From assembly GCA_947384955.1 (NCBI GenBank), contig CANDJC010000009.1, positions 1 through 55,269 on the forward strand: a stretch of 55,269 nucleotides of DNA, given 5' to 3'. Below the pieces are notes generated by a model. That model did no database searches, was not told where the DNA came from, and saw only the letters and a program-made list of their open reading frames with translations. The position numbers and the translations under genes are program-made. This document shows, one piece after another, positions 8,415-42,072 of the stretch (position 1 is the first letter of the stretch; each line of letters begins with the position of its first letter). Origin of the DNA: an uncultured Eubacterium sp. GTDB lineage: Bacteria > Bacillota > Clostridia > Lachnospirales > Lachnospiraceae.

Positions 8415-8694
8415 GCTGGATACAGGCACGCTTTCCCGGCTGATGTGACTCTGGAGAAAAGTTAGAAGCTCTTAGTTTTCTGCTCAATACACAGGATTTG
8501 GGGCTCACGGACTATCGTTGTCAAAAACTATTCAGCCCCAAAAGGCGCCTGCCTGATACACAGCTTACACCAGCCAGTATCGCCAGGGCATCAGGCGCCG
8601 GTCCGTCCGTCTGCACATCCCTGTCGCAGAAAACTTAGAGCTTCTTACTTTTCGGAAGCGGAACATCAGCCGGGAAAGTGTGCCTGTATCCAGC
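8415..8694. repeat. Large palindromic intergenic element, copy A2 (complete)
   Basis: Arms at 8415-8483 and 8626-8694 are inverted copies bounded by GCTGGATACAGGC outside and TTAG-TTTTCTGC inside. The centre is closely related to that of copy A1 but in the opposite orientation: the GGCGCC, CCCCAAAAGGCGCC and CCGGTCCGTCCGTC blocks are shared. The 176 bases between A1 and A2 hold only short repeats of a GATTCAGCTTA-like word. Confidence 0.85.
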
Positions 8695-21548: not shown

Positions 21549-21827
21549 CGCTGTGACATGATAGCTATGAAGCGTGAGGTTGCTGCCCGTCGTGGCAGGT
21601 TTTCCGTGGAGTGAATGTCAAGTTAGGAAACTGGCGACAAGTCACTGTACTATTAGAATATCTGTTTCATCCGAATTTCATCTTGGAAAACAGCAGAGCT
21701 GAAACAGAAATATGGTGTGTAGTCAAACAGACAGGAAGCATTTCCAAAAAGGACACACACGGGTTCGTGTACAGTCACCGCTTGTCGTACTGAATAATTA
21801 AGTGCGAATAAGGAGGCGACTTTTTTT
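21549..21827 (+). promoter_or_regulatory. Structured S10 operon leader
   Basis: The leader contains stems such as CTGCC-CGTCGT-GGCAG (21582-21598), and TGAAACAG-like and CACACACGGGTTCGTGT segments (21757-21773). In other bacteria S10 operons are feedback-controlled through their leader by L4. I recall a conserved leader of this kind upstream of rpsJ in Lachnospiraceae, but cannot assign an Rfam family here. Confidence 0.55.
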
Positions 21828-30852: not shown

Positions 30853-31290
30853 ATGGACTTATCAACTTTAAAGGCTGCAGAAGGCTCTAGAAAAGACAGG
30901 TTCAGAAAAGGACGCGGACATGGTTCAGGTAACGGCAAAACAGCCGGCAAAGGACACAAAGGCCAGAAAGCCCGCTCAGGGGCTCCGAGGCCAGGCTTTG
31001 AAGGTGGCCAGATGCCATTATACAGAAGATTACCAAAGAGAGGCTTTAAGAATATTAATTCTAAGATAATCGTTGGAATCAATGTAAAAGAACTCGAAAG
31101 ATTTGACAATGATTCTACGGTTACCGTGGATACGTTAATCGAAACAGGAATTGTTAAAAATCCAAGAGACGGCGTCAAGATTCTTGGAAATGGAGAATTA
31201 ACCAAGAAGCTCACAGTTCAGGCCAATGCATTCAGTGCTGGTGCAAAAGAAAAGATTGAGGCTCTTGGTGGAAAAGCAGAGGTGATCTAA
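30853..31290 (+). CDS. rplO: 50S ribosomal protein L15
   Basis: 145 residues. '[51 protein letters not shown]' is the Gly/Lys-rich rRNA-binding head; the C-terminal '[11 protein letters not shown]' ends it. Its stop overlaps the secY start (TAATG), so SecY translation is tied to that of L15. Confidence 0.97.
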
Positions 31291-32606
31291 TGTTACAGAC
31301 GCTTCGCGGTGCATTCAAGGTTAAAGAGATTCGGGAGCGGTTAGTATATACGTTTATGATGCTGATTGTAATCCGTCTGGGCTCACAGCTTCCATGTCCG
31401 GGAATTGATTCCGCTCTGTTTTCAGAGTGGTTCAGTTCCCAGACAAACGGGGCGTTTAACTTTTTTGATGCAATCACTGGTGGCTCATTCAATGAAATGT
31501 CTGTTTTTGCACTGAGTATTACACCATATATTACTTCTTCCATTATCATGCAGCTCCTTACCATTGCGATTCCGAAGTTAGAGGAAATGCAGCGTGACGG
31601 GGAAGACGGCAGAAAGAAGATTGCCAGCATTACCCGTTATGTGACCGTGGCGCTCGCTTTAATCGAATCGATTGCCATGGCGGTTGGATTTGGAAGAATG
31701 GGATATCTGACGAATTTCAGCGCGTTTTCTGTGATTCAGGTAGTATGTATTCTGACTGCCGGCTCTGCAGTGCTGATGTGGATTGGCGAGCAGATTACAG
31801 AAAAAGGTGTGGGGAACGGGATTTCGATTGTATTAGTTATCAATATCGTATCCAGAATTCCGGCTGATATGTCTAATTTGTACGAGCAGTTCGTAAAGAA
31901 CCAGAAAATTGCAAGAGGCGTTCTGGCGGCGGTTATTATACTTGCGGTCATTCTGCTGACGGTTGTTTTCGTAATTTTGCTGCAGGATGCAGAGCGCAAG
32001 ATTCCTGTGCAGTATTCTAAAAAAATCCAGGGCAGGAAGCTGGCGGGCGGACAGAGTACGTTTATTCCGCTGAAGGTGAATACGGGCGGCGTGATTCCGA
32101 TTATTTTCGCACAGTCTATTATGGAATTTCCGGTTGTTATCTGTACTTTGCTGGGAGTTGACGGAGGGACGAGTATCGGAGGGAAGATACTGAATGGTCT
32201 GCAGCAGAGAAACTGGTGCGACCCGTCGAATCCGGTGCTGTCAATCGGACTTGCTGTGTATCTGGTGCTGGTTGTTGTATTTGCGTATTTTTATACGTCG
32301 ATTACGTTTAATCCGCTGGAGATTGCAGATAATATGAAAAAACAGGGAGGCTTTATTCCGGGCATACGGCCGGGGAAGCCGACGAGTGAATACCTTACGA
32401 AGATTTTGAATTATATCGTGTTTATCGGGGCTGTGGGGCTGTCGATTTGTGCGGTGATTCCGATTTTCTTTAATGGGGTGTTTAATGCGAATGTTTCGTT
32501 TGGAGGGACTTCCATTATTATTATTGTGGGGGTTGTGATTGAGACGATTAAGCAGATTGAGTCTAAGATGGTTGTGCGGTATTATAAGGGATTTTTGAGT
32601 GAATAG
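31290..32606 (+). CDS. secY: Preprotein translocase subunit SecY
   Basis: 438 residues with ten membrane segments. 'RLVYTFMMLIVIRLGSQLPCPGID', 'GGSFNEMSVFALSITPYITSSIIMQLL' (plug and helix 2 region), 'GEQITEKGVGNGISIVLVINI', 'VQYSKKIQGRKLAGGQSTFIPLKVNTGGVIPIIFAQSIM' and 'FIPGIRPGKPTSEYL' are diagnostic. It forms the protein-conducting channel with SecE and SecG. Here it is the last gene of the first ribosomal segment: an intrinsic terminator follows 11 bases after the stop, where adk would normally come. Confidence 0.97.
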   Translation: MLQTLRGAFKVKEIRERLVYTFMMLIVIRLGSQLPCPGIDSALFSEWFSSQTNGAFNFFDAITGGSFNEMSVFALSITPYITSSIIMQLLTIAIPKLEEMQRDGEDGRKKIASITRYVTVALALIESIAMAVGFGRMGYLTNFSAFSVIQVVCILTAGSAVLMWIGEQITEKGVGNGISIVLVINIVSRIPADMSNLYEQFVKNQKIARGVLAAVIILAVILLTVVFVILLQDAERKIPVQYSKKIQGRKLAGGQSTFIPLKVNTGGVIPIIFAQSIMEFPVVICTLLGVDGGTSIGGKILNGLQQRNWCDPSNPVLSIGLAVYLVLVVVFAYFYTSITFNPLEIADNMKKQGGFIPGIRPGKPTSEYLTKILNYIVFIGAVGLSICAVIPIFFNGVFNANVSFGGTSIIIIVGVVIETIKQIESKMVVRYYKGFLSE

Positions 32607-33773: not shown

Positions 33774-33912
33774 GCAGGCGCCTTTTGGGGACTTCGGGGG
33801 TTTTGTATAGGGGAAGCTGTGTGTCCCCAAATCCTGGGTGCTGGGCAGAAAACTAAGAACTTCTAACTTTTCTCCAAAGTCACATCAGAAGGAACAAGTT
33901 TCTCCATCCAGC
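33774..33912. repeat. Half copy of the palindromic element, A4
   Basis: 33774-33844 matches the centre of element A1 (GCAGGCGCCTTTTGGGG ... CCCCAAATCCTG) and 33845-33912 matches its right arm almost base for base (GCAGAAAACTAAGAACTTCT ... CTCCATCCAGC). The left arm and half the centre are missing, so this copy cannot form the long hairpin. Confidence 0.8.
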
Positions 33913-33926
33913 TGGGTTTTGGAGGG

Positions 33927-34140
33927 ATTTCAGTGTCTGATTGTGTAGAGGAAAAGTTTTGTATATTTTGTTTATGGAGATGTTTTTTGGGATAGATTTC
34001 AGTATGAGATTGAGCAGAAGAATGGTTTTGTTTATGCAGGAGGTATTTGTATAGATTTCAGTGTTTGATTTTGTTGGAACAAGTTTCCTCACCGGGCAGA
34101 TTTTTGGAGGGATTTTGGTAACTGACAGTGTGGAAGGAAT
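33927..34140. repeat. Imperfect 57-69 bp tandem repeats
   Basis: Units beginning GATTTCAGT recur near 33927, 33996 and 34055, with a weaker fourth at 34112. Each is T/G-rich. Together with the region to 34270 there is no credible gene; a short minus frame here reflects the repeat composition. Confidence 0.5.
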
Positions 34141-34270
34141 AGGTCATTCTGTTTAGTTGTATTTGGCTGAAGGTCAGTAGATGCTTGTGCTGAGGGAAAA
34201 GATATGGCATCATTGAACAGTAAAAAATTTTGGCATATTTTTGGAGAGGTATCTGAACGGCTGCGTATTT

Positions 34271-34481
34271 ATTGACCAGTTTATAAAAATATTTTGAAAT
34301 ATTGCATATATTTTTATAATCAGTTATAATAGTAAAAGTAATTTGAATTGTATTAAATTCAGTACAATTTTTGAAAAGACGAAATTGTATGAATTAATCG
34401 CTTGTTTTTTAAATTGCCAGATAATTACATGCAGAATTGAACTCTGGAAGGCTTGAAAATAAAGGGATTGAGAAGTATAGG
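34271..34481 (+). promoter_or_regulatory. CRISPR leader 1 with promoter
   Basis: This AT-rich block is about 90% identical to 39676-39889 in front of the second array, which marks it as a leader. It carries TTGCAT (34302-34307) and TATAAT (34325-34330) spaced by 17, directed into the array. The last 40 bases (ACTCTGGAAGGCTTGAAAAT onward) are nearly invariant between the two leaders, as expected for an adaptation site. Confidence 0.85.
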
Positions 34482-34935
34482 GTAGAAATAAAAGAAGCCC
34501 GCTTAGGGCATTGACACCTGCTGTTCTTCTTTCTGGTTCGCCATTTCGTCAGGTAGAAATAAAAGAAGCCCGCTTAGGGCATTGACACTTTTTGCCAGCT
34601 TCACTGAAAATTTTCCCTCTACCGTGTAGAAATAAAAGAAGCCCGCTTAGGGCATTGACACAGCTTTAAGAACAGATATTCTTCCTCCCAGCAAACCGTA
34701 GAAATAAAAGAAGCCCGCTTAGAGCATTGACACCATATATTGGACATTTTTTTGTCATGTTTAGTTATCGTAGAAATAATAGAAGCTTGCTTAGGACATT
34801 GACACAGCATTAAAGAAAATACTATTTGAACAATAACTAAAAAGCAGAGATAAAAGAAGTCTGTTTAAGGCCTTGACACAATATATTTAACATTCTATAT
34901 TCCTTATAGAAATGATAAAAACCTGTTCAGGAAGC
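34482..34935 (+). CRISPR. CRISPR array 1 (orphan)
   Basis: 36-base repeats at 34482, 34553, 34626, 34698 (one change), 34770 and 34844 (decayed), with a last remnant near 34906. Spacers are 35, 37, 36, 36, 38 and 26 bases. The repeat starts GTAGAAATAAAAG, has the stem GCCC-GCTTA-GGGC and ends ATTGACAC. The leader-side repeats are intact and the far ones decayed, which sets the reading direction. No cas gene lies in the window. The stem followed by an 8-base ATTGACAC tail suggests Cas6-type processing (type I or III). Confidence 0.93.
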
Positions 34936-35070
34936 GGAAAAGTAAAACTGGATATGGGGTGCAAAACTGAATATAGTGATAAAATGGAATATACAAACAC
35001 ATGTCACCAATAGACAAGATGCACCAATGATTTTTGCTTTTAAGAGTACATTTTATCTATAAAAATGATT

Positions 35071-35588
35071 CTATGCTCTGTCCATTTTATCATGCAAAGA
35101 GTTTTTAAATAAAGATGCTGATCTGTATATTTGCTCATTTTCATATGTATCCGCCAAATATACAGAAAAATTTCCATTATCATTTGACAGCTTTAAAAGC
35201 CGGACTGGCTGATTATCCTTTGTATCTATTTTCAGCCGGTGATTTCTCATGTCAATTTCATAAACCATATTTTCAAACATTGTAGCAGATAATATCAGAT
35301 GACACTGCAGATTGTCCATTTCTTTTGCAACGACTGGCATATCTATATAAATTAAATCATTCAGTACAAAATTTACTCTGTACAGATTCCCAGCTGCATC
35401 TCCTCCGAAGCCACTGAATTTCACATCCTTTTTTATCAATCTTGCACCCAGTCCCATCAGTAGTTCATCACTGGCAACCCATATAGAAACAATGCTCCTG
35501 TGTCTTACATTGCGCGGCATCCGTGGAACCAGCTGATTTGTACAACCGGTCTTCTTGCTTCACTATCCAGATTTAACGTAATCTGCAT
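35071..35588 (-). pseudogene. Retropepsin-like protein gene with a frameshift
   Basis: The gene starts at the ATG at 35588, which overlaps the stop of the preceding gene (TAATG), and encodes 'MQITLNLDSEARRPVVQISWFHG' before a stop after 26 codons. The rest ('RNVRHRSIVSIWVASDELLMGLG ... HLILSATMFENMVYEIDMRNHRLKID') continues in another frame to 35071. Removing two bases in the GCGC run near 35514 joins the frames. The C-terminal 'LILSATMFENMVYEID' resembles the second half of a retroviral-type aspartic protease fold. It may be a dead gene, a phase-variable gene or a sequencing error. Confidence 0.6.
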
Positions 35589-35818
35589 TATATCACACCT
35601 GCCATTCCAAGCATCATTCCTTCTTCTGTCGTATACCACCCTATAATTCCATCAACACCTGAAATCTGCATTTTCAGCAGTTCTTCTTTTGATTTATCTG
35701 TATATACAATTTCGGCTGATTCTATTGTAACACCATCATCATTCTTATATATTACATTTTTTAGTCCTAACCACTGGTTCGGATATTTTTTTTCCATTTG
35801 TTTTCTCGTTAATCGCAT
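35588..35818 (-). CDS. Small hypothetical protein coupled to the retropepsin-like gene
   Basis: 76 residues from the ATG at 35818, directly after AAGGAGG; the longer frame to 35884 is unsupported. It opens 'MRLTRKQMEKKYPNQWLGLKNVIYKNDDGVTIESAEIVYTDKSKEELL' and ends 'GWYTTEEGMMLGMAGVI'. Its stop overlaps the next start, so the two genes form a fixed pair; I recall similar pairs in other gut Clostridia. Function is unknown. Confidence 0.7.
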   Translation of the reverse strand: MRLTRKQMEKKYPNQWLGLKNVIYKNDDGVTIESAEIVYTDKSKEELLKMQISGVDGIIGWYTTEEGMMLGMAGVI

Positions 35819-36061
35819 ATATCCTCCTTTTTTATTCCAGCTGCAGTCAAATACAATTACTATCTTAAATTTTATTATATCCATATTACAAATAAAAATA
35901 AACCCCCAATATGCTTCGGTTGTTATTTGCCTTTACAATGTATTACTGTACAATGAAATGCTCTGCCATCATTATTTATATGTACCGTCTGGCATGACTC
36001 TCCTTCGAGGGGACGGTACGTAACTTCCTCATACAAACTATCACCCACGATTCGTTACTTT

Positions 36062-36310
36062 TCACACCCACGCCAGATGTTGGTTATCCATAATTTTTCT
36101 CCAGTATTTGCGGATTGTTATGATTTCGCTGTGCACTTTAGCTGGCTCTTGCTTCATATGTTTCATTTCCTGGCTGTGAAAGCGCATCAGCTTTTTATAA
36201 TCCGCTTCCATATTTATATACTTTTCCCCAGATTTAAATGCTTCAGTTTGCCTGGACAGCCTCCTGTTCCTGTATTGCAGCGCTGAAAATGACTCAAAAT
36301 TTATCCGCAT
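36062..36310 (-). CDS. Small basic hypothetical protein
   Basis: 82 residues from the ATG at 36310 (GGAGG 5 bases upstream), 'MRINFESFSALQYRNRRLSRQTEAFKSGEKYINMEADYKKLMRFHSQEMK...'. It is basic and predicted almost wholly helical, perhaps coiled. It overlaps the 3' end of the DUF6809-like gene by 17 bases, so translation is coupled. No family recognised. The 177 bases before the next minus-strand gene hold a hairpin-like GTACCGTC...GACGGTAC (about 35983-36020). Confidence 0.55.
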   Translation of the reverse strand: MRINFESFSALQYRNRRLSRQTEAFKSGEKYINMEADYKKLMRFHSQEMKHMKQEPAKVHSEIITIRKYWRKIMDNQHLAWV

Positions 36311-36758
36311 GAACACCTCCGCTTTCTTCATGTTCCACTCTGCGCCGGATTTCAAGCAGGCTGCCGTCGGCCATTTCGGCCGCAACAGACCCGCCATGTT
36401 TCGGCACAGACCTTTTTATGGCAGACCGAATTTGGCCGCCGCCAGCACTGTCGCAGGCTTCCTGAAGATCTGCGCAGAACCGGAGCCCGGCAAGGAACCC
36501 CATTGCAGTATAAGTTTCCTGATGTGTCATAGAAAATTCCAGCACTGCACTGTACAGAGCGTCATTATCTCTGTCTGCAGACGGGAATATTTGTTTCAAT
36601 CTGTCAAAGAGTTCCTCAAATACAGCGTCAATCCGCTTCTGGTACGCATCCTTTCCATCATCCTTTATAGGAATGCGGCTAGTCTCCTCACCATATATAA
36701 TATACTCCATAAAGCTTTCCATGCCTGCCCGCTCCGTCATTTGTCTTAATTCTCCCAT
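36294..36758 (-). CDS. DUF6809-like hypothetical protein
   Basis: 154 residues. The start at 36758 is set by AAGGAGGG 8 bases upstream. The first 100 residues ('ESFMEYIIYGEETSRIPIKDDGKDAYQKRIDAVFEELFDRL ... GFLAGLRFCADLQEAC') have the helical pattern I associate with DUF6809 proteins of Lachnospiraceae plasmids and phage-like islands. The tail is polar. It is transcribed divergently from an XRE regulator across a shared region with an inverted repeat, so that regulator may control it. Confidence 0.5.
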   Translation of the reverse strand: MGELRQMTERAGMESFMEYIIYGEETSRIPIKDDGKDAYQKRIDAVFEELFDRLKQIFPSADRDNDALYSAVLEFSMTHQETYTAMGFLAGLRFCADLQEACDSAGGGQIRSAIKRSVPKHGGSVAAEMADGSLLEIRRRVEHEESGGVHADKF

Positions 36759-36773
36759 TTCCTTTCCCTCCTT

Positions 36774-36821
36774 ACATGCTTATACAGACCTCTTTATTAT
36801 AACCTGTTTATATAAGCATGT
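36774..36821. promoter_or_regulatory. Inverted repeat between divergent genes, candidate XRE operator
   Basis: ACATGCTTATA (36774-36784) and its exact complement TATAAGCATGT (36811-36821) lie in the 116-base region between the DUF6809-like gene and the XRE gene. The spacing suggests two half-sites or one looped site. Confidence 0.5.
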
Positions 36822-36886
36822 TTATAAAAAGAGCTATTTTTCAGTGATACTTTGTATAAAATAAGAATGAAAGGATGGATGCGGCA

Positions 36887-37099
36887 ATGAAATATTTACA
36901 CATGCGGCTTGAAGAACTGCTTACGGAAAGAGGTCTTTCAAAGAAAAAGGTATGCTCCGCCCTTGACATGGAACGTACCAATTTTAACAGGTATTACCGG
37001 GATGAATTTCAGCGGATTGACGCAAATCTGCTTTTAAAGCTGTGCGATTATTTTGGCTGCGAAGTCGGTGACCTGTTTGAAATAAGGGAAAAAGAATAA
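36887..37099 (+). CDS. XRE/Cro-type helix-turn-helix regulator
   Basis: 70 residues. 'LEELLTERGLSKKKVCSALDMERTNFNRYYRDEFQRIDANLLLKLCDYFGCEVGDLFEIRE' is a complete Cro/CI HTH. The ATG at 36887 gives a usable ribosome site (AAAGGA, 11 bases); the ATG at 36875 is too close to it. It resembles compact regulators of mobile islands and toxin-antitoxin loci. It is divergent from the DUF6809-like gene. Confidence 0.75.
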   Translation: MKYLHMRLEELLTERGLSKKKVCSALDMERTNFNRYYRDEFQRIDANLLLKLCDYFGCEVGDLFEIREKE

Positions 37100-37507
37100 T
37101 AACTTCGCGGAATGGGCGGGCTGCTGTGCCCGCCATTCCTGCGCAGGGCAGCCGCCTGCTTCTGCTTTCTTTTATATACCCTGGCCAGCCTTTCATACAG
37201 AAAATTGATGGCGGGAATGCGTTTATCATGCAGGAATAGCAGCTCATTTTCTTTATATTTTCAAAGTCGTAAGAACGGGTTATACTCTATAGGCGCGAAC
37301 GTAACTAAGCAGTCCTGGTAAAACTGCTGTATGAAACTTGGCATTCTGATTTATCTGCCGTCATTGAATTTCAAACCCTTAACCATTTTGTCACTCACTT
37401 TGTCTTAATTAAATTCTAAACCCACAAAAACTTTCCACATTTGACCAGGGCTTAATTCCATCGACTGACACCTCTAATCACATATTTTCGCTTCAGTTAT
37501 AGGTAAA
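37100..37507. other. Intergenic DNA with a possible minus-strand coding remnant
   Basis: On the minus strand, about 37263 to 37105 reads as protein-like sequence ('ENELLFLHDKRIPAINFLYERLARVYKRKQKQAAALRR'), but the frame is broken upstream by a stop and there is no start. It may be the tail of a dead recombinase or similar gene. The remaining stretch shows nothing I recognise. Confidence 0.25.
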
Positions 37508-37759
37508 TTATTCTGTCCAGCGAGCAACAAAAAAACCATCTGCCCAATTTGTCTGGTCAATTTTCATTCTAGATATTTCAAAACAGCTTACCGGGAAGTC
37601 TCGAAATCCTTCCTTGCACTTCAGCTGCTCAATCGCTTCACTTGCTTTTTTCTCAGAGGAAAAAACGCCAATTAATTTCGTTTCCTCATGTGTTCCAAAA
37701 TCATCGTTCAAGTTATGGGTATGCCATAAAAGAAAAACATCTGTCAGAGGTATGCTCAT
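37508..37759 (-). CDS. DUF7336 domain protein
   Basis: 83 residues. 'DVFLLWHTHNLNDDFGTHEETKLIGVFSSEKKASEAIEQLKCKEGFRDFPVSCFEISRMKIDQTNWADGFF' matches the DUF7336 pattern: an opening VFLLWH strand, K-x-IGVFSS and a closing DGF. It is a small domain common in bacteria, with no established biochemical role. It follows the next gene by 6 bases and is probably translated with it; such pairs often occur in accessory DNA with immunity-like genes. Confidence 0.7.
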   Translation of the reverse strand: MSIPLTDVFLLWHTHNLNDDFGTHEETKLIGVFSSEKKASEAIEQLKCKEGFRDFPVSCFEISRMKIDQTNWADGFFVARWTE

Positions 37760-37765
37760 ATCTAA

Positions 37766-38110
37766 CTATCCCTTCGTGTAGATATCTATCAGGTTTAGGT
37801 GATTGTCAAAAACTGCTGTGTACCGGGTACAGCAATCATTATCTTCATCAGAGATGTGGATGGTACAGGAAACAGTATCCATTGGCGGGTCAAAGTTGAA
37901 ATTTTTTGTAATGGAAACAAACTCATTGTGGAAATGGTATTTTTTCAACACGGCAGTCAAATCGCCCCGCATATCTTCCACAAACGTTTCTGCATCATCA
38001 CTATACCAATTTGTGAGATAGTCTCTCATAAACCGCCGTGTCATATCAAAGATTTTGGAATTATCTATAAACTTGGAAAACTGCTTCGGGTCGACTGGTA
38101 TAATGCTCAT
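37766..38110 (-). CDS. Hypothetical protein, partner of the DUF7336 gene
   Basis: 114 residues from the ATG at 38110, six bases after GGAGG; upstream codons to 38209 lack support. It is acidic, 'MSIIPVDPKQFSKFIDNSKIFDMTRRFMRDYLTNWYSDDAETFVEDMRG...' then a beta-rich end 'VSCTIHISDEDNDCCTRYTAVFDNHLNLIDIYTKG'. The acidity and small size suit an immunity protein, but no toxin gene is near. I do not recognise a family. Confidence 0.6.
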   Translation of the reverse strand: MSIIPVDPKQFSKFIDNSKIFDMTRRFMRDYLTNWYSDDAETFVEDMRGDLTAVLKKYHFHNEFVSITKNFNFDPPMDTVSCTIHISDEDNDCCTRYTAVFDNHLNLIDIYTKG

Positions 38111-38250
38111 AAGTAACCTCCATTGCTGCTCTGTATTCATTGAAAGCATAGCACAGGGATATGAACAAATCAACAGCAAATAGTAAATCCTGGTTCCGAC
38201 CCGGCACAATCTTCAGAAAATAGTGGACGCTCCGGCAAAGCTGTGGTAGA

Positions 38251-39240
38251 ATGAAGCGAAAGAAGGTGAGGACGGTGAGTGAGGAAACTACAATCGCCCA
38301 GGGGCTGCACGTCACGGATGACAGCGCGGGCTATGATGCCGCCTGCAAGCGTATCCTGTCTGAAAAGGCAATCCTGGCGCGGATTATGAAGTCCTGTCTG
38401 GAAGAATACAAAGACTGCGATGTTAACGATATTGCCGGGAAGTACATAGAGGGCCAGCCCCAGGTGTCTGCCGTTCCGGTGCTGCCGGACGAGGGTGATA
38501 CAGTCATCAGCGGCATGGACACCGAGGATAAATCGGTGCGTGAGGGGACAGTCACCTATGACATTCGCTTCCGGGCCATCGTCCCCGGCTCTGAGGAACG
38601 GATTGCCCTTATTATCAACGTGGAGGCGCAGAACGATTTTTATCCCGGCTATCCGCTGATAAAGCGTGGCATATACTACTGTTGCCGGATGATTTCTTCA
38701 CAGTATGGCCGGGAGTTCACCGGCCCGCGCTATGAGAAAATCAAGAAGGTCTGCTCCATCTGGATTTGCATGGACCCGCCGAAGTATCGGAAAAACACCA
38801 TCACACGGTATCGGCTGGTGGAGGAACACCTGGCAGGCGAGGCAGCGGAACCAGTCAAAAATTATGATTTGCTTTCTATCGTCATGCTGTGTCTTGGCGG
38901 GCCGGACGGGGGAAACTATAACGGCGTGCTGCGGATGCTGGATGTGCTTCTCTCCAACGAAACCAGCGAGGCGGAGAAGCGGAGAATTTTACAAGATGAC
39001 TATGACATTCCGATGACACAAAGTATGGAAGAGGAGGTATTGGTCATGTGTAATTTGAGCAAGGGCGTTAGAGAAAAAGGTCGTGCCGAGGGTCGTGCTG
39101 AAGGTATGGCTAACGGTATTTTGACCTCTATCAAAAACCTTACGGAAACAATGGGCCTGACGATTGAGCAGGCTATGGCGGCGCTGAAAGTCCCGGAGGG
39201 CGAACGTCAGAAATATATGGATTTGCTGGAACGGCAGTAA
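38251..39240 (+). CDS. PD-(D/E)XK nuclease-family transposase-like protein (Rpn-related)
   Basis: Up to 329 residues. The nuclease core is visible as Asp104 ('TYDIRFRAIV') and Glu125-x-Gln127 ('IINVEAQNDFYPGYPLIKRGIYY'), the D-ExQ variant of the Rpn/PDDEXK-transposase group. The C-terminal region has 'REKGRAEGRAEGMANG' and a helical tail. Rpn proteins help RecA-independent horizontal transfer in E. coli. A GTG at 38275 is an alternative start. The gene is visibly richer in GC than its neighbours, which suggests recent acquisition. Confidence 0.8.
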   Translation: MKRKKVRTVSEETTIAQGLHVTDDSAGYDAACKRILSEKAILARIMKSCLEEYKDCDVNDIAGKYIEGQPQVSAVPVLPDEGDTVISGMDTEDKSVREGTVTYDIRFRAIVPGSEERIALIINVEAQNDFYPGYPLIKRGIYYCCRMISSQYGREFTGPRYEKIKKVCSIWICMDPPKYRKNTITRYRLVEEHLAGEAAEPVKNYDLLSIVMLCLGGPDGGNYNGVLRMLDVLLSNETSEAEKRRILQDDYDIPMTQSMEEEVLVMCNLSKGVREKGRAEGRAEGMANGILTSIKNLTETMGLTIEQAMAALKVPEGERQKYMDLLERQ

Positions 39241-39244
39241 CATT

Positions 39245-39283
39245 GAAAACGCCACGGACTATCATTGTCCCTGGCGTTTTCTG
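39245..39283 (+). terminator. Terminator after the PD-(D/E)XK gene
   Basis: A 10-bp stem GAAAACGCCA / TGGCGTTTTC (39245-39254, 39272-39281), 5 bases after the stop codon. Confidence 0.75.
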
Positions 39284-39467
39284 TATCTGCTTTAGCTGGC
39301 TTGGACGGCTTTTATTTTCTGGCAGCACCCTTCCTGTTCTTTCAGCGCTTTTATCGTATAATTCCTGCTGTTTCATATACTGCTTTCTTTTGTCAAAAAG
39401 TATAGTGCCTTTATCTGGAGAATTCAAATGTGGATAACCCGGCATATTGGTAAAAATGAAAGGAAAA

Positions 39468-39489
39468 AGCCGGACACCGGCTGTTTTTT
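39468..39489 (+). terminator. Intrinsic terminator upstream of CRISPR leader 2
   Basis: AGCCGG-ACA-CCGGCT followed by GTTTTTT. It would insulate the second array from transcription coming from the left. The stretch from 39284 to 39675 otherwise holds no recognisable gene. Confidence 0.7.
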
Positions 39490-39675
39490 AAATGCATAGA
39501 AAGAGGTACAGAATTGGCAGATACAAGTGTTTTGTAAAAAATATCTACGCAAAATGAAATATAAAATGATATATTTGCAATTCCGTATTTTCCACGAATT
39601 TTTTGTGGATTGATTTATTTTTTTCAATTCATCATTATGCTCGAATCTGGTTTGGATGTGAAAAGTAACGTATCT

Positions 39676-39889
39676 ATTGACCAGTTTGTGAAATATATTT
39701 AAAAAATATTGCATATATTTTTATAATTAGTTATAATAGGAAAAGCAATTTGAAATTGTATTAAACTCAGTACAATTTTTGAAAAAACGAAATTGTACGA
39801 ATTAATTGGTTGTTTTTTAAATTGTCAGATAATTACATGCAGGATTAGACTCTGGAAGGCTTGAAAATAAAGGGATTGAGAAGAATAGG
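39676..39889 (+). promoter_or_regulatory. CRISPR leader 2 with promoter
   Basis: Near-duplicate of leader 1 (34271-34481). TTGCAT (39709-39714) and TATAAT (39732-39737) are again spaced by 17. The array-proximal 40 bases differ from leader 1 at only a few positions. Confidence 0.85.
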
Positions 39890-40285
39890 GTAGAAATAGT
39901 AGAAGCCCGCATAGGGCATTGACACATTCAATATGCTCTATTATATTATAGATGTCTTTTTCTTGTAGAAATAGTAGAAGCCCGCATAGGGCATTGACAC
40001 AGACATTTTCTTTCAAATACAGTTTCTGGCACTATTGCAGTAGAAATAGTAGAAGCCCGCATAGGGCATTGACACAATTCTTTCCGAATTGTAGAAGGAA
40101 TACTGTTAACCGGTAGAAATAGTAGAAGCCCGCATAGGGCATTGACATAGTGTTAAAGAAAATACTATTTGAAAAATAACTAATAAGTAGAAATGAAAGA
40201 AGTCCGTTTAAGTCTTTGATACGATATACTTAACATTTTATATTTTTTGTTCCCGATAGAAATGATGAAAGTCTGTTTGGTGAGG
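39890..40285 (+). CRISPR. CRISPR array 2 (orphan)
   Basis: 36-base repeats at 39890, 39965, 40040, 40113 (last base changed), 40187 (decayed) and a remnant near 40256. Spacers are 39, 39, 37, 38 and 33 bases. The repeat differs from array 1 at three positions: GTAGAAATAGTAG instead of GTAGAAATAAAAG, and the loop GCATA instead of GCTTA. The spacer at 40149-40186 is nearly identical to array 1's 34806-34843, and the downstream flank also matches, so the two loci are duplicates. The leader-proximal spacers are different. No cas genes are near. Confidence 0.93.
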
Positions 40286-41000
40286 TACAAAACGAAAACT
40301 GGATATGGGGTGCAAAAACTGAATATGTTGATAAAATTGAATATACAAACACATGCTATCACTGGACACAAATGCGCCAGACAATGTACAGAAGCTTTAT
40401 CAGCGGGGTACACGAAAAAGGAACGAGCGGATATTAGTCAACTGGTTTATGACGAAGACCTGATAATGGCAGAAGACCTGATATAATCCATCAGAACAGA
40501 CATGATGCATAAGATTTGAATTTTAACCGTTTAAAAATGTTACTGTTATTTAAAGTCAAAAATTCATATCCAAATTTTTCTGACAAATGCAATTTATTAT
40601 ACGAAGCAAAAATGAAGCAGAAGCTTGTTAACGAAAAATGATACTTTCAGCTTTTTGGAAATAAACATTCGATTGAAAAATTTTTCCATTTGCTGTCCGG
40701 CTAATCAATAACCATCATCTTTTCTCTCCCGCGAATATTCCTCCTTTAAGCCCGGATTATGATATAATCAAATCTCCCATTCTGCAAAACCGCATATCCA
40801 GAACTGTAACAGTTCAGGTAAGGTATTACATTTCTGAATACCTGGCAAATCCCCTCTTCCGGCGGAATTTCCAAAGCATTACATTAAAACATATCGGCGG
40901 CGCAGCATAAACATCCTTCCACCAAAAGTTTACTGCCCGCCTGCCCTATAAAAATTTCCCACACTAATTACAGCTCTTCACGTAAAACCTGCCAAAACCA
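40286..41000. other. Gene-poor DNA after array 2
   Basis: 40286-40385 is homologous to 34936-35030 after array 1 (both contain AACTGGATATGGGGTGCAAAA). A short plus-strand frame ending at 40486 crosses the array end and looks like chance or a remnant. 40802-40816 contains the palindrome GAACTGTAACAGTTC. Nothing else is recognised. Confidence 0.5.
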
Positions 41001-41240
41001 GCCGGGTGACGGGAAGATACACCGGCTTCCAGCGACATTGGAGGAGTGTTTAGAATCCCTTAGCATTCTGCAAGGAAACCAGGCGGCGAAGCCGAAGCGG
41101 CACCTTTAGCTTCTGGCTGCAGGCCAGGGCGAACCAGGTGCCGCGTCCGTCCGGTGCCACAGCGTAAACGCAGAATGCTTAGGGATTCTTAACACTCCGG
41201 AGCCGGAGCAGGAAGCCGGTGTATCTTCCCGCCACCCGGC
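41001..41240. repeat. Large palindromic intergenic element, copy B
   Basis: Two 71-base arms (41001-41071, 41170-41240) are inverted copies, from GCCGGGTG outside to GCATTCTGC inside. The 98-base centre has its own stem (GCGGCACCT...AGGTGCCGC) and a GTCCGTCCGGTGCC block like that of the A copies. The inner arm end TTTAGAATCCCTTAG aligns with GTTAGAAGCTCTTAG of A2. It lies about 190 bases upstream of adk. Confidence 0.85.
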
Positions 41241-41400
41241 GTCCGAGGGGCCAGCACATCCCCTCTTCATCCAGCCCGCCACCCACAATTCAGTTTCCCG
41301 CACATTTTCCAGATTTTATAGTGGAAAAATATGCTGTTTTATGGTATGGTTATAAAAGCAGTACAGTATTCCACACGAATAGATGAATATACTGTAATAA

Positions 41401-42072
<672 letters not shown>

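Follow-up and report, generated by a model that had tools for sequence, protein, structure and literature searches.

Two CRISPR arrays from an apparently duplicated locus between secY and adk of an uncultured Eubacterium sp., with a type III-D operon on another contig of the same assembly

The stretch of DNA analysed here, 55,269 nucleotides long and hereafter called the window, is contig CANDJC010000009.1 (C9) of the 5.06-Mb draft genome of an uncultured Eubacterium sp. of the Lachnospiraceae, an assembly of 271 contigs estimated to be 95.9% complete and 4.67% contaminated. Amid ribosomal protein genes, an 8.8-kb gap between secY and adk holds two arrays of clustered regularly interspaced short palindromic repeats (CRISPR) on the + strand, array A (34482-34935) and array B (39890-40280), each with a leader and a trailer (Table 1). 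An earlier reading of the letters without database searches (the sequence-only reading) had described them as orphan arrays stemming from a locus duplication, and repeat mapping and alignment bore out both arrays, with their leaders, repeats and trailers, down to their positions.

Table 1. Features of the secY-adk gap and its borders, in window coordinates.
Feature	Position	Strand	Remarks
secY, upstream gap border	31290..32606	+	Pfam SecY 1.1e-108
Leader A	34268..34481	+	Promoter-like TTGCAT 34302-34307, 17 nt, TATAAT 34325-34330, placed by eye
Array A, good 36-nt repeats	34482..34733	+	Repeats at 34482, 34553, 34626 (identical) and 34698 (one change)
Array A, private spacers (n = 4)	34518-34552, 34589-34625, 34662-34697, 34734-34769	+	
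Array A, decayed old end	34770..35030	+	Repeats at 34770 and 34844, vestige at ~34914, two old spacers, trailer
Stretch between the copies (4.6 kb)	35031..39672		Small open reading frames (ORFs); Cro/C1 helix-turn-helix gene 36875-37099; DUF7336 gene 37508-37759
PDDEXK_2-like nuclease/transposase, between the array copies	38251-39240		Below Pfam's cut-off
Leader B	39673..39889	+	Promoter-like TTGCAT 39709-39714, 17 nt, TATAAT 39732-39737, placed by eye
Array B, good 36-nt repeats	39890..40148	+	Repeats at 39890, 39965, 40040 (identical) and 40113 (one change)
Array B, private spacers (n = 3)	39926-39964, 40001-40039, 40076-40112	+	
Array B, old end	40149..40385	+	Spacer common with A 40149-40186, decayed repeat at 40187, vestige at ~40258, trailer
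adk, downstream gap border	41428..42072	+	Pfam ADK 4.9e-61

Both loci have the make-up of CRISPR arrays: near-identical direct repeats, unique spacers of regular length, a leader at one end and repeat decay at the other. The 36-base repeat length first reported was correct, while the spacers of both arrays measure 34-39 nt rather than 35-39. A de novo scan of the window for at least three exact 18-mers spaced 50-95 nt apart recovered arrays A and B only. With up to 3 mismatches allowed, the assembly as a whole contained the repeat pattern nine times, always within the two arrays, and the reversed pattern not at all, and the leader of about 215 bases was present in two copies, both of them here; among the loci compared, each private spacer was restricted to its own array. 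The repeat is predicted to form a GCCC-loop-GGGC hairpin, the good repeats folding at −8.1 and −8.5 kcal/mol and beating 197 of 200 and 200 of 200 shuffles, respectively; the hairpin was not predicted for the decayed array A repeats at 34770 and 34844. A TATAAT box 17 nt past TTGCAT was recognised by eye at both window arrays as well as in L042, L119a and L033, although a promoter scanner did not report the leader A promoter, its −35 box being too weak. Leaders 83-85% identical over 221-242 nt occur in three relatives (L030, L033 and L042), and leader A is conserved in relatives within the genus. Just 5′ of leader A, at 33891-34151, lie direct repeats, degenerate and 50-64 nt long, which include a family with four copies and are unlike the CRISPR repeat.

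The two copies align from leader through trailer, from about 34268/39673 to about 35030/40385. The leaders, noted earlier as near-identical, match at 196 of 214 aligned positions with 3 gap columns, and the old array with its trailer (34770-35030 versus 40113-40385) matches at 215 of 261 positions with 12 gap columns, so that the flanking similarity proposed by the sequence-only reading held to its full extent. The correspondence that it had drawn between the spacers at 34806-34843 and 40149-40186 was likewise confirmed (31-nt core, 97% identical), and the next pair of old spacers shows a weaker one (21 nt, 90%). Mismatches are rarer in the leaders than in the old array and trailer (18/214 versus 46/261, Fisher P = 0.004), which is what continued use of the leaders would lead one to expect. 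Inside an array the good repeats hardly vary; between A and B they differ at three positions (A/G at 10, A/T at 11 and T/A at 22). The shared leader, two old spacers and trailer, followed by four private spacers in one copy and three in the other, suggest that one array locus was duplicated and that both copies then gained spacers. After the duplication, new repeats at the leader end seem to have been copied from the first repeat of the same array, which would make the repeats uniform within and different between arrays; this order is read from the pattern, and homogenisation by conversion would look similar. A literature search on array duplication returned no paper, which does not show the phenomenon to be unpublished. 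Between the array copies, the window also carries a 30-nt inverted pair (36049-36078 and 39645-39674, 87% identical) whose second arm stops at the start of leader B and which had no match in the other loci compared.

The sequence-only reading had found no cas gene in the window. Searches for the RAMP and Cas1 families and for homologues of the Cas6 and Cas10 described below agreed, finding none there; cas genes beside the array are usual for type III-D, though they do not define it. A RAMP (Cas7-like) search of the whole genome gave matches on contig C135 only (six at E up to 1, five of them over the cut-off), which provides candidates for the cas genes elsewhere on which the arrays had been said to depend unless they are relics. 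This 12,575-bp contig (L048) carries, after a PdaC-like gene and in one direction, genes for Cas6, a CARF-TIR protein, Cas10, Cas7, Csx10, a two-RAMP Cas7, Csx19 and a large Cas7. PADLOC recognised Cas6 (1.7e-64), Cas10d (6.8e-115), Cas7_IIId, Cas5_IIId/Csx10 (5.1e-44), the two-RAMP Cas7, Csx19 (3.5e-18) and the large Cas7, and its subtype III-D models were the best fit for these genes. Pfam matches over the cut-off covered Cas6, the Cas10 palm, RAMPs in three of the four genes and TIR; the large Cas7 matched TIGR03986 over the cut-off (NCBIfam, 1.7e-93). Cas10 has no HD motif and its palm site reads EGDD; in the available part of PMC11229360, EGDD is among the palm variants in loci with effectors, and HD domains are least common in type III-D. 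The CARF-TIR protein (L048 2824-4902) is 692 aa long, with the CARF domain first and the TIR domain last (528-638); it matched TIGR02221 at 3.2e-11, below the cut-off, and TIR_2 at 5.6e-11, over it. A similar protein in the relative L044 has a HEPN-like RNVMAH motif in place of TIR. An assignment of the repeat to class 2 (Cas12/Cas13) was given up, since its hairpin and 8-nt tail suit processing by Cas6 and a III-D operon is present in the genome; no Cas9/Cas12/Cas13/Cas3 search was made.

The link between the arrays and C135 comes from relatives. At up to 3 mismatches the repeat pattern occurred in one of 397 family genomes, its own, and a looser pattern was required to reach the family. In the GTDB collection this pattern marked 30 stretches on 26 contigs, belonging by their titles to Lachnospiraceae (Blautia, Mediterraneibacter and others) and to unplaced Eubacteriales, Clostridiales and Eubacterium records; in viral contigs it had no match. 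The stretches are fixed bins of up to 8 kb, of which L037 is partly masked and L041 adjoins L045 on one contig. Their arrays reach 23 in-register repeats. Of 38 array groups, 37 retain the hairpin pairs G16-C28 and C19-G25, positions that the pattern left unconstrained, the exception being the decayed array L034; this count includes the window and an L026 array split into three, and groups without a repeated unit contribute one arbitrary repeat. A near full-length Cas6, 40-58% identical to that of C135, adjoins the arrays in five of the 30 stretches (L026, L033, L039, L040 and L044), with a partial one in L030, and by tblastn some cas homologue was present in 17 of the 30 and none in the other 13. 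Within the genus, the repeat occurs in five of 13 genomes, all five of which match the C135-type Cas6, itself found in six of 13. The hypergeometric probability, computed by hand, is 6/1287 = 0.005, a guide only since the species are related; the assemblies are estimated at 88-97% complete, which makes absences soft. A literature search with the repeat core found no paper, which does not show the repeat to be unpublished.

The same Cas6 family has different partners in the genus. It precedes a GGDD-bearing Cas10 in G399, G403 and G406; the contigs of G399 and G403 extend further and show another III-D set behind it, containing Csx10 and Csm2. One Cas6 family thus stands with two III-D effector sets in one genus (L109, L110 and L111 versus L048). 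Conversely, the closest C135-like effector operon in the genus is that of G397, which has neither this Cas6 nor the repeat. The effector operon is therefore not tied to the repeat, and what connects the arrays with C135 is Cas6 together with leader and repeat. The most likely arrangement is that the Cas6 of C135 acts in trans, processing the transcripts of both arrays for the III-D complex. The sequence-only reading had left the arrays either dependent on cas genes elsewhere or relics; the matching Cas6 family on C135 narrows this towards the former, and the arrays are orphan only locally. Two further observations concern the relatives' loci. L110 has a SAVED-domain effector for which a SAVED-TIR model (2.6e-10) ranked after two endonuclease-type SAVED models. 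A MYG1/UPF0160 exonuclease-like gene lies directly 3′ of a CRISPR array in two III-D loci of different bacteria (L031 1556-2413 and L044 4546-5340), identified by Pfam in L031 and by sequence likeness in L044, and is possibly an unrecognised accessory.

Adaptation genes were sought across the assembly. Cas1 (PF01867) had no match in the genome, while the same model detected a relative's Cas1 at 8.8e-92, and no RT::PrimPol homologue was present either. With no Cas1 found, the arrays look readable and not extendable at present; the adaptation genes would have been lost since, or are missing from the assembly. The other repeat-bearing genomes of the genus are similar: for Cas1, G403 had no match, G399 a sub-threshold one, G401 a fragment and a sub-threshold match, and G406 a copy broken by stops, and the pieces in G401 and G406 lie near arrays of other repeats. 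No RT::PrimPol homologue was found in G399, G400 or G403, and partial RT matches only in G401, G406 and G397. How the arrays of the genus kept growing without an intact Cas1 seems a residual puzzle, given the intact repeats at the leader end and the apparent growth of arrays A and B after the duplication. A speculative answer, to which we give limited weight, is that Cas6 makes up with leader and repeat a stable core that outlasts its partners in the genus, found with at least two different III-D effector operons and, in all five repeat-bearing genomes, with no intact Cas1, spacers being gained through a Cas1 acting in trans or Cas1 having been lost very recently.

The sequence-only reading had proposed a comparison of the spacers with phage and plasmid sequences, which yielded nothing better than E 0.03 and no convincing target. 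All private spacers but A4, six of seven, were compared with viral contigs, A3 as an exact 25-mer and the other five as back-translated patterns, and none had a match. In 100 family genomes, for each of which at most 7 candidates were scored, spacer A1 gave the strongest match beyond the window (27/30 nt; E 2e-4 per genome, about 0.02 for 100). It lies in G016, antisense to a gene that we take, from its ORF alone, to be sigma-factor-like, with no prophage gene visible in 3 kb, and may be due to chance. An immune role for the arrays hence rests on their family and not on targets.

We consider it likely, at about 80%, that these are two genuine type III-D arrays from one duplicated locus, that the Cas6 and effectors of C135 act on them, and that their adaptation genes were lost or left unassembled. 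Each array would be transcribed from the promoter in its own leader, and the C135 Cas6 would cut the transcripts at the repeat hairpin, yielding CRISPR RNAs (crRNAs) with a presumed 8-nt 5′ tag (AUUGACAC); a predicted Cas6-type hairpin whose pairs are kept across the family, with such a putative tag, fits a type III-D array. The crRNAs would guide a complex of the C135 Cas10, Cas7, Csx10 and Csx19 to complementary transcripts, whereupon Cas10 would synthesise cyclic oligoadenylates as activators of the CARF-TIR protein. Following duplication, the two loci would each have gained spacers at the leader end, duplicating their own first repeat, and the adaptation genes would later have been lost, unless they are missing from the assembly. 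Several points weigh against this account. The window itself lacks cas genes, Cas1 and RT::PrimPol are missing from the genome searches, and the phage, plasmid and viral collections held no convincing spacer target. The C135 proteins' top NCBIfam matches, other than that to TIGR03986, fall below curated cut-offs. In the genus, the Cas6 match of G406 is a 33-residue fragment at a contig start, G400 carries Cas6 without a recognised repeat, and the nearest relative of the C135 Cas10 is that of G397 (50-52%, in two pieces), without this Cas6 or repeat. C135 could also serve other arrays lost from the assembly.

A competing explanation of function is that the arrays are non-functional relics left after the loss of their own cas locus, with the C135 operon using other arrays. 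The decayed distal repeats, the small number of spacers, the missing adaptation genes and the lack of convincing targets would suit such relics. Distal decay is, however, ordinary in working arrays, the leader-end repeats are intact and fold well, and the leaders have diverged less than the trailers; moreover, a matching Cas6 is present and the assembly holds no other copy of the repeat, all of which makes relics improbable. That C135 is a contaminant of the bin, the true cas genes being unassembled, might be argued from the 4.67% contamination estimate and from its being a short separate contig with no copy of the repeat or leader. Yet both ends of C135 (1-80 and 12435-12575) match a dispersed, palindromic element about 220 bp long. 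The window has the element too (1-67 and 41001-41272), as do loci L100, L101, L110, L116, L120 and L138 of the genus; of the 30 repeat-bearing stretches (L018-L047), the only ones with it are L029 and L032, judged to belong to the genus genomes G399 and G403. C135 thus stops where a repeated element would break an assembly. The element lies at or near contig ends in L110, L120 and L138 and in or beside the secY-adk gap in L100 and L101, and may both break assemblies and help rearrangements. Tetranucleotide usage (r = 0.926 for C135 versus the whole window, 0.83-0.93 versus window pieces of the same size and 0.70-0.88 versus 12 relative loci) is compatible with one genome, although the overlapping ranges make it weak evidence, which also counts among the reservations above. 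We regard contamination as very improbable.

The nature and origin of the pair can also be read otherwise. The closeness of the two copies is what a dispersed non-CRISPR repeat family mimicking an array might show, and the sequence-only reading had named such a family, or alternatively non-unique spacers, as a finding that would count against it. The restriction of two leader and nine repeat copies to this locus, the array-specific private spacers, the long in-register arrays of relatives and the cas homologues in more than half of the relatives' stretches leave this idea with next to no credibility. As to origin only, the arrays might have arrived separately from related arrays, for instance by two insertions at a hot spot, instead of by duplication in place. 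Inserts in the secY-adk gap of relatives (see below) and the extent of divergence, about 8% of positions in the leader and 18% at the old end, speak for separate arrival, which we still hold to be rather unlikely given the same orientation, the distance of 5.4 kb and homology from leader to trailer that includes two old spacers. Duplication remains our preferred account of the origin.

The location had been called very unusual. Ten further genomes of the genus, in which one stretch spans both secY and adk, were compared, a set without G400, whose contig stops before secY, and G399, which has no adk match. In six of them the gap is about 116-347 bp, and in the other four it holds inserts of about 1.3, 1.6, 1.9 and 6.2 kb; none of the ten has a CRISPR array there. 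The site therefore accepts insertions within the genus, and it is the array that sets the window's genome apart among those compared. Two of the four genes in the 6.2-kb insert of G404 (L098 1026-6906) match the candidate defence models PDC-S72 and PDC-M26A. Elsewhere in the window, Rfam matches to a TwoAYGGAY RNA and an S10-Clostridia ribosomal leader lie at 8450-8659 and 21559-21640.

These results indicate that apparently orphan arrays can be tied to their machinery through Cas6 and leader and not through gene neighbourhood. The array pair would preserve, on a small scale, the natural history of a duplication and of the spacers then gained independently, each copy seemingly duplicating its own first repeat, and the repeat and leader family connects many Lachnospiraceae with type III-D systems.

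Compared with known systems, the CARF-TIR protein of C135 resembles Cat1, a CARF-TIR NADase (PMC12162218), in joining a CARF sensor to TIR in one protein. The active-site residues given in the available text of that source, S7 to E74, put the Cat1 TIR at the N-terminus, whereas that of C135 is C-terminal; judging by this opposite domain order, we do not claim the protein as Cat1. CRISPR-associated reverse transcriptases fused to a primase-polymerase (CART-CAPP, with Cas1), fusions described in PMC10415136, have a counterpart in relatives with this repeat, where RT::AEP-like genes stand beside Cas1 (L019 by domain search; L023, L027, L028 and L035 by similarity to L019), a feature without homologue in the window's genome, G399, G400 and G403. 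C135 and the arrays differ from type III-D loci in that the arrays lie on another contig, in a ribosomal protein cluster, and in that no adaptation module was found. They are like type III-D in having Cas10 without the HD motif, Csx10, Csx19, multi-domain Cas7 proteins, Cas6 and 36-nt hairpin repeats, and going by the portion of PMC12669027 available, C135, with its fused Cas7 and Csx19, would be III-D2-like. The find is of a known kind and mostly ordinary, namely type III-D arrays that are orphan locally, their effector genes lying elsewhere in the genome; mildly unusual are a pair of arrays that records its own duplication and a unit of Cas6, leader and repeat that keeps company with different effectors and lacks an intact Cas1 in the five repeat-bearing genomes.

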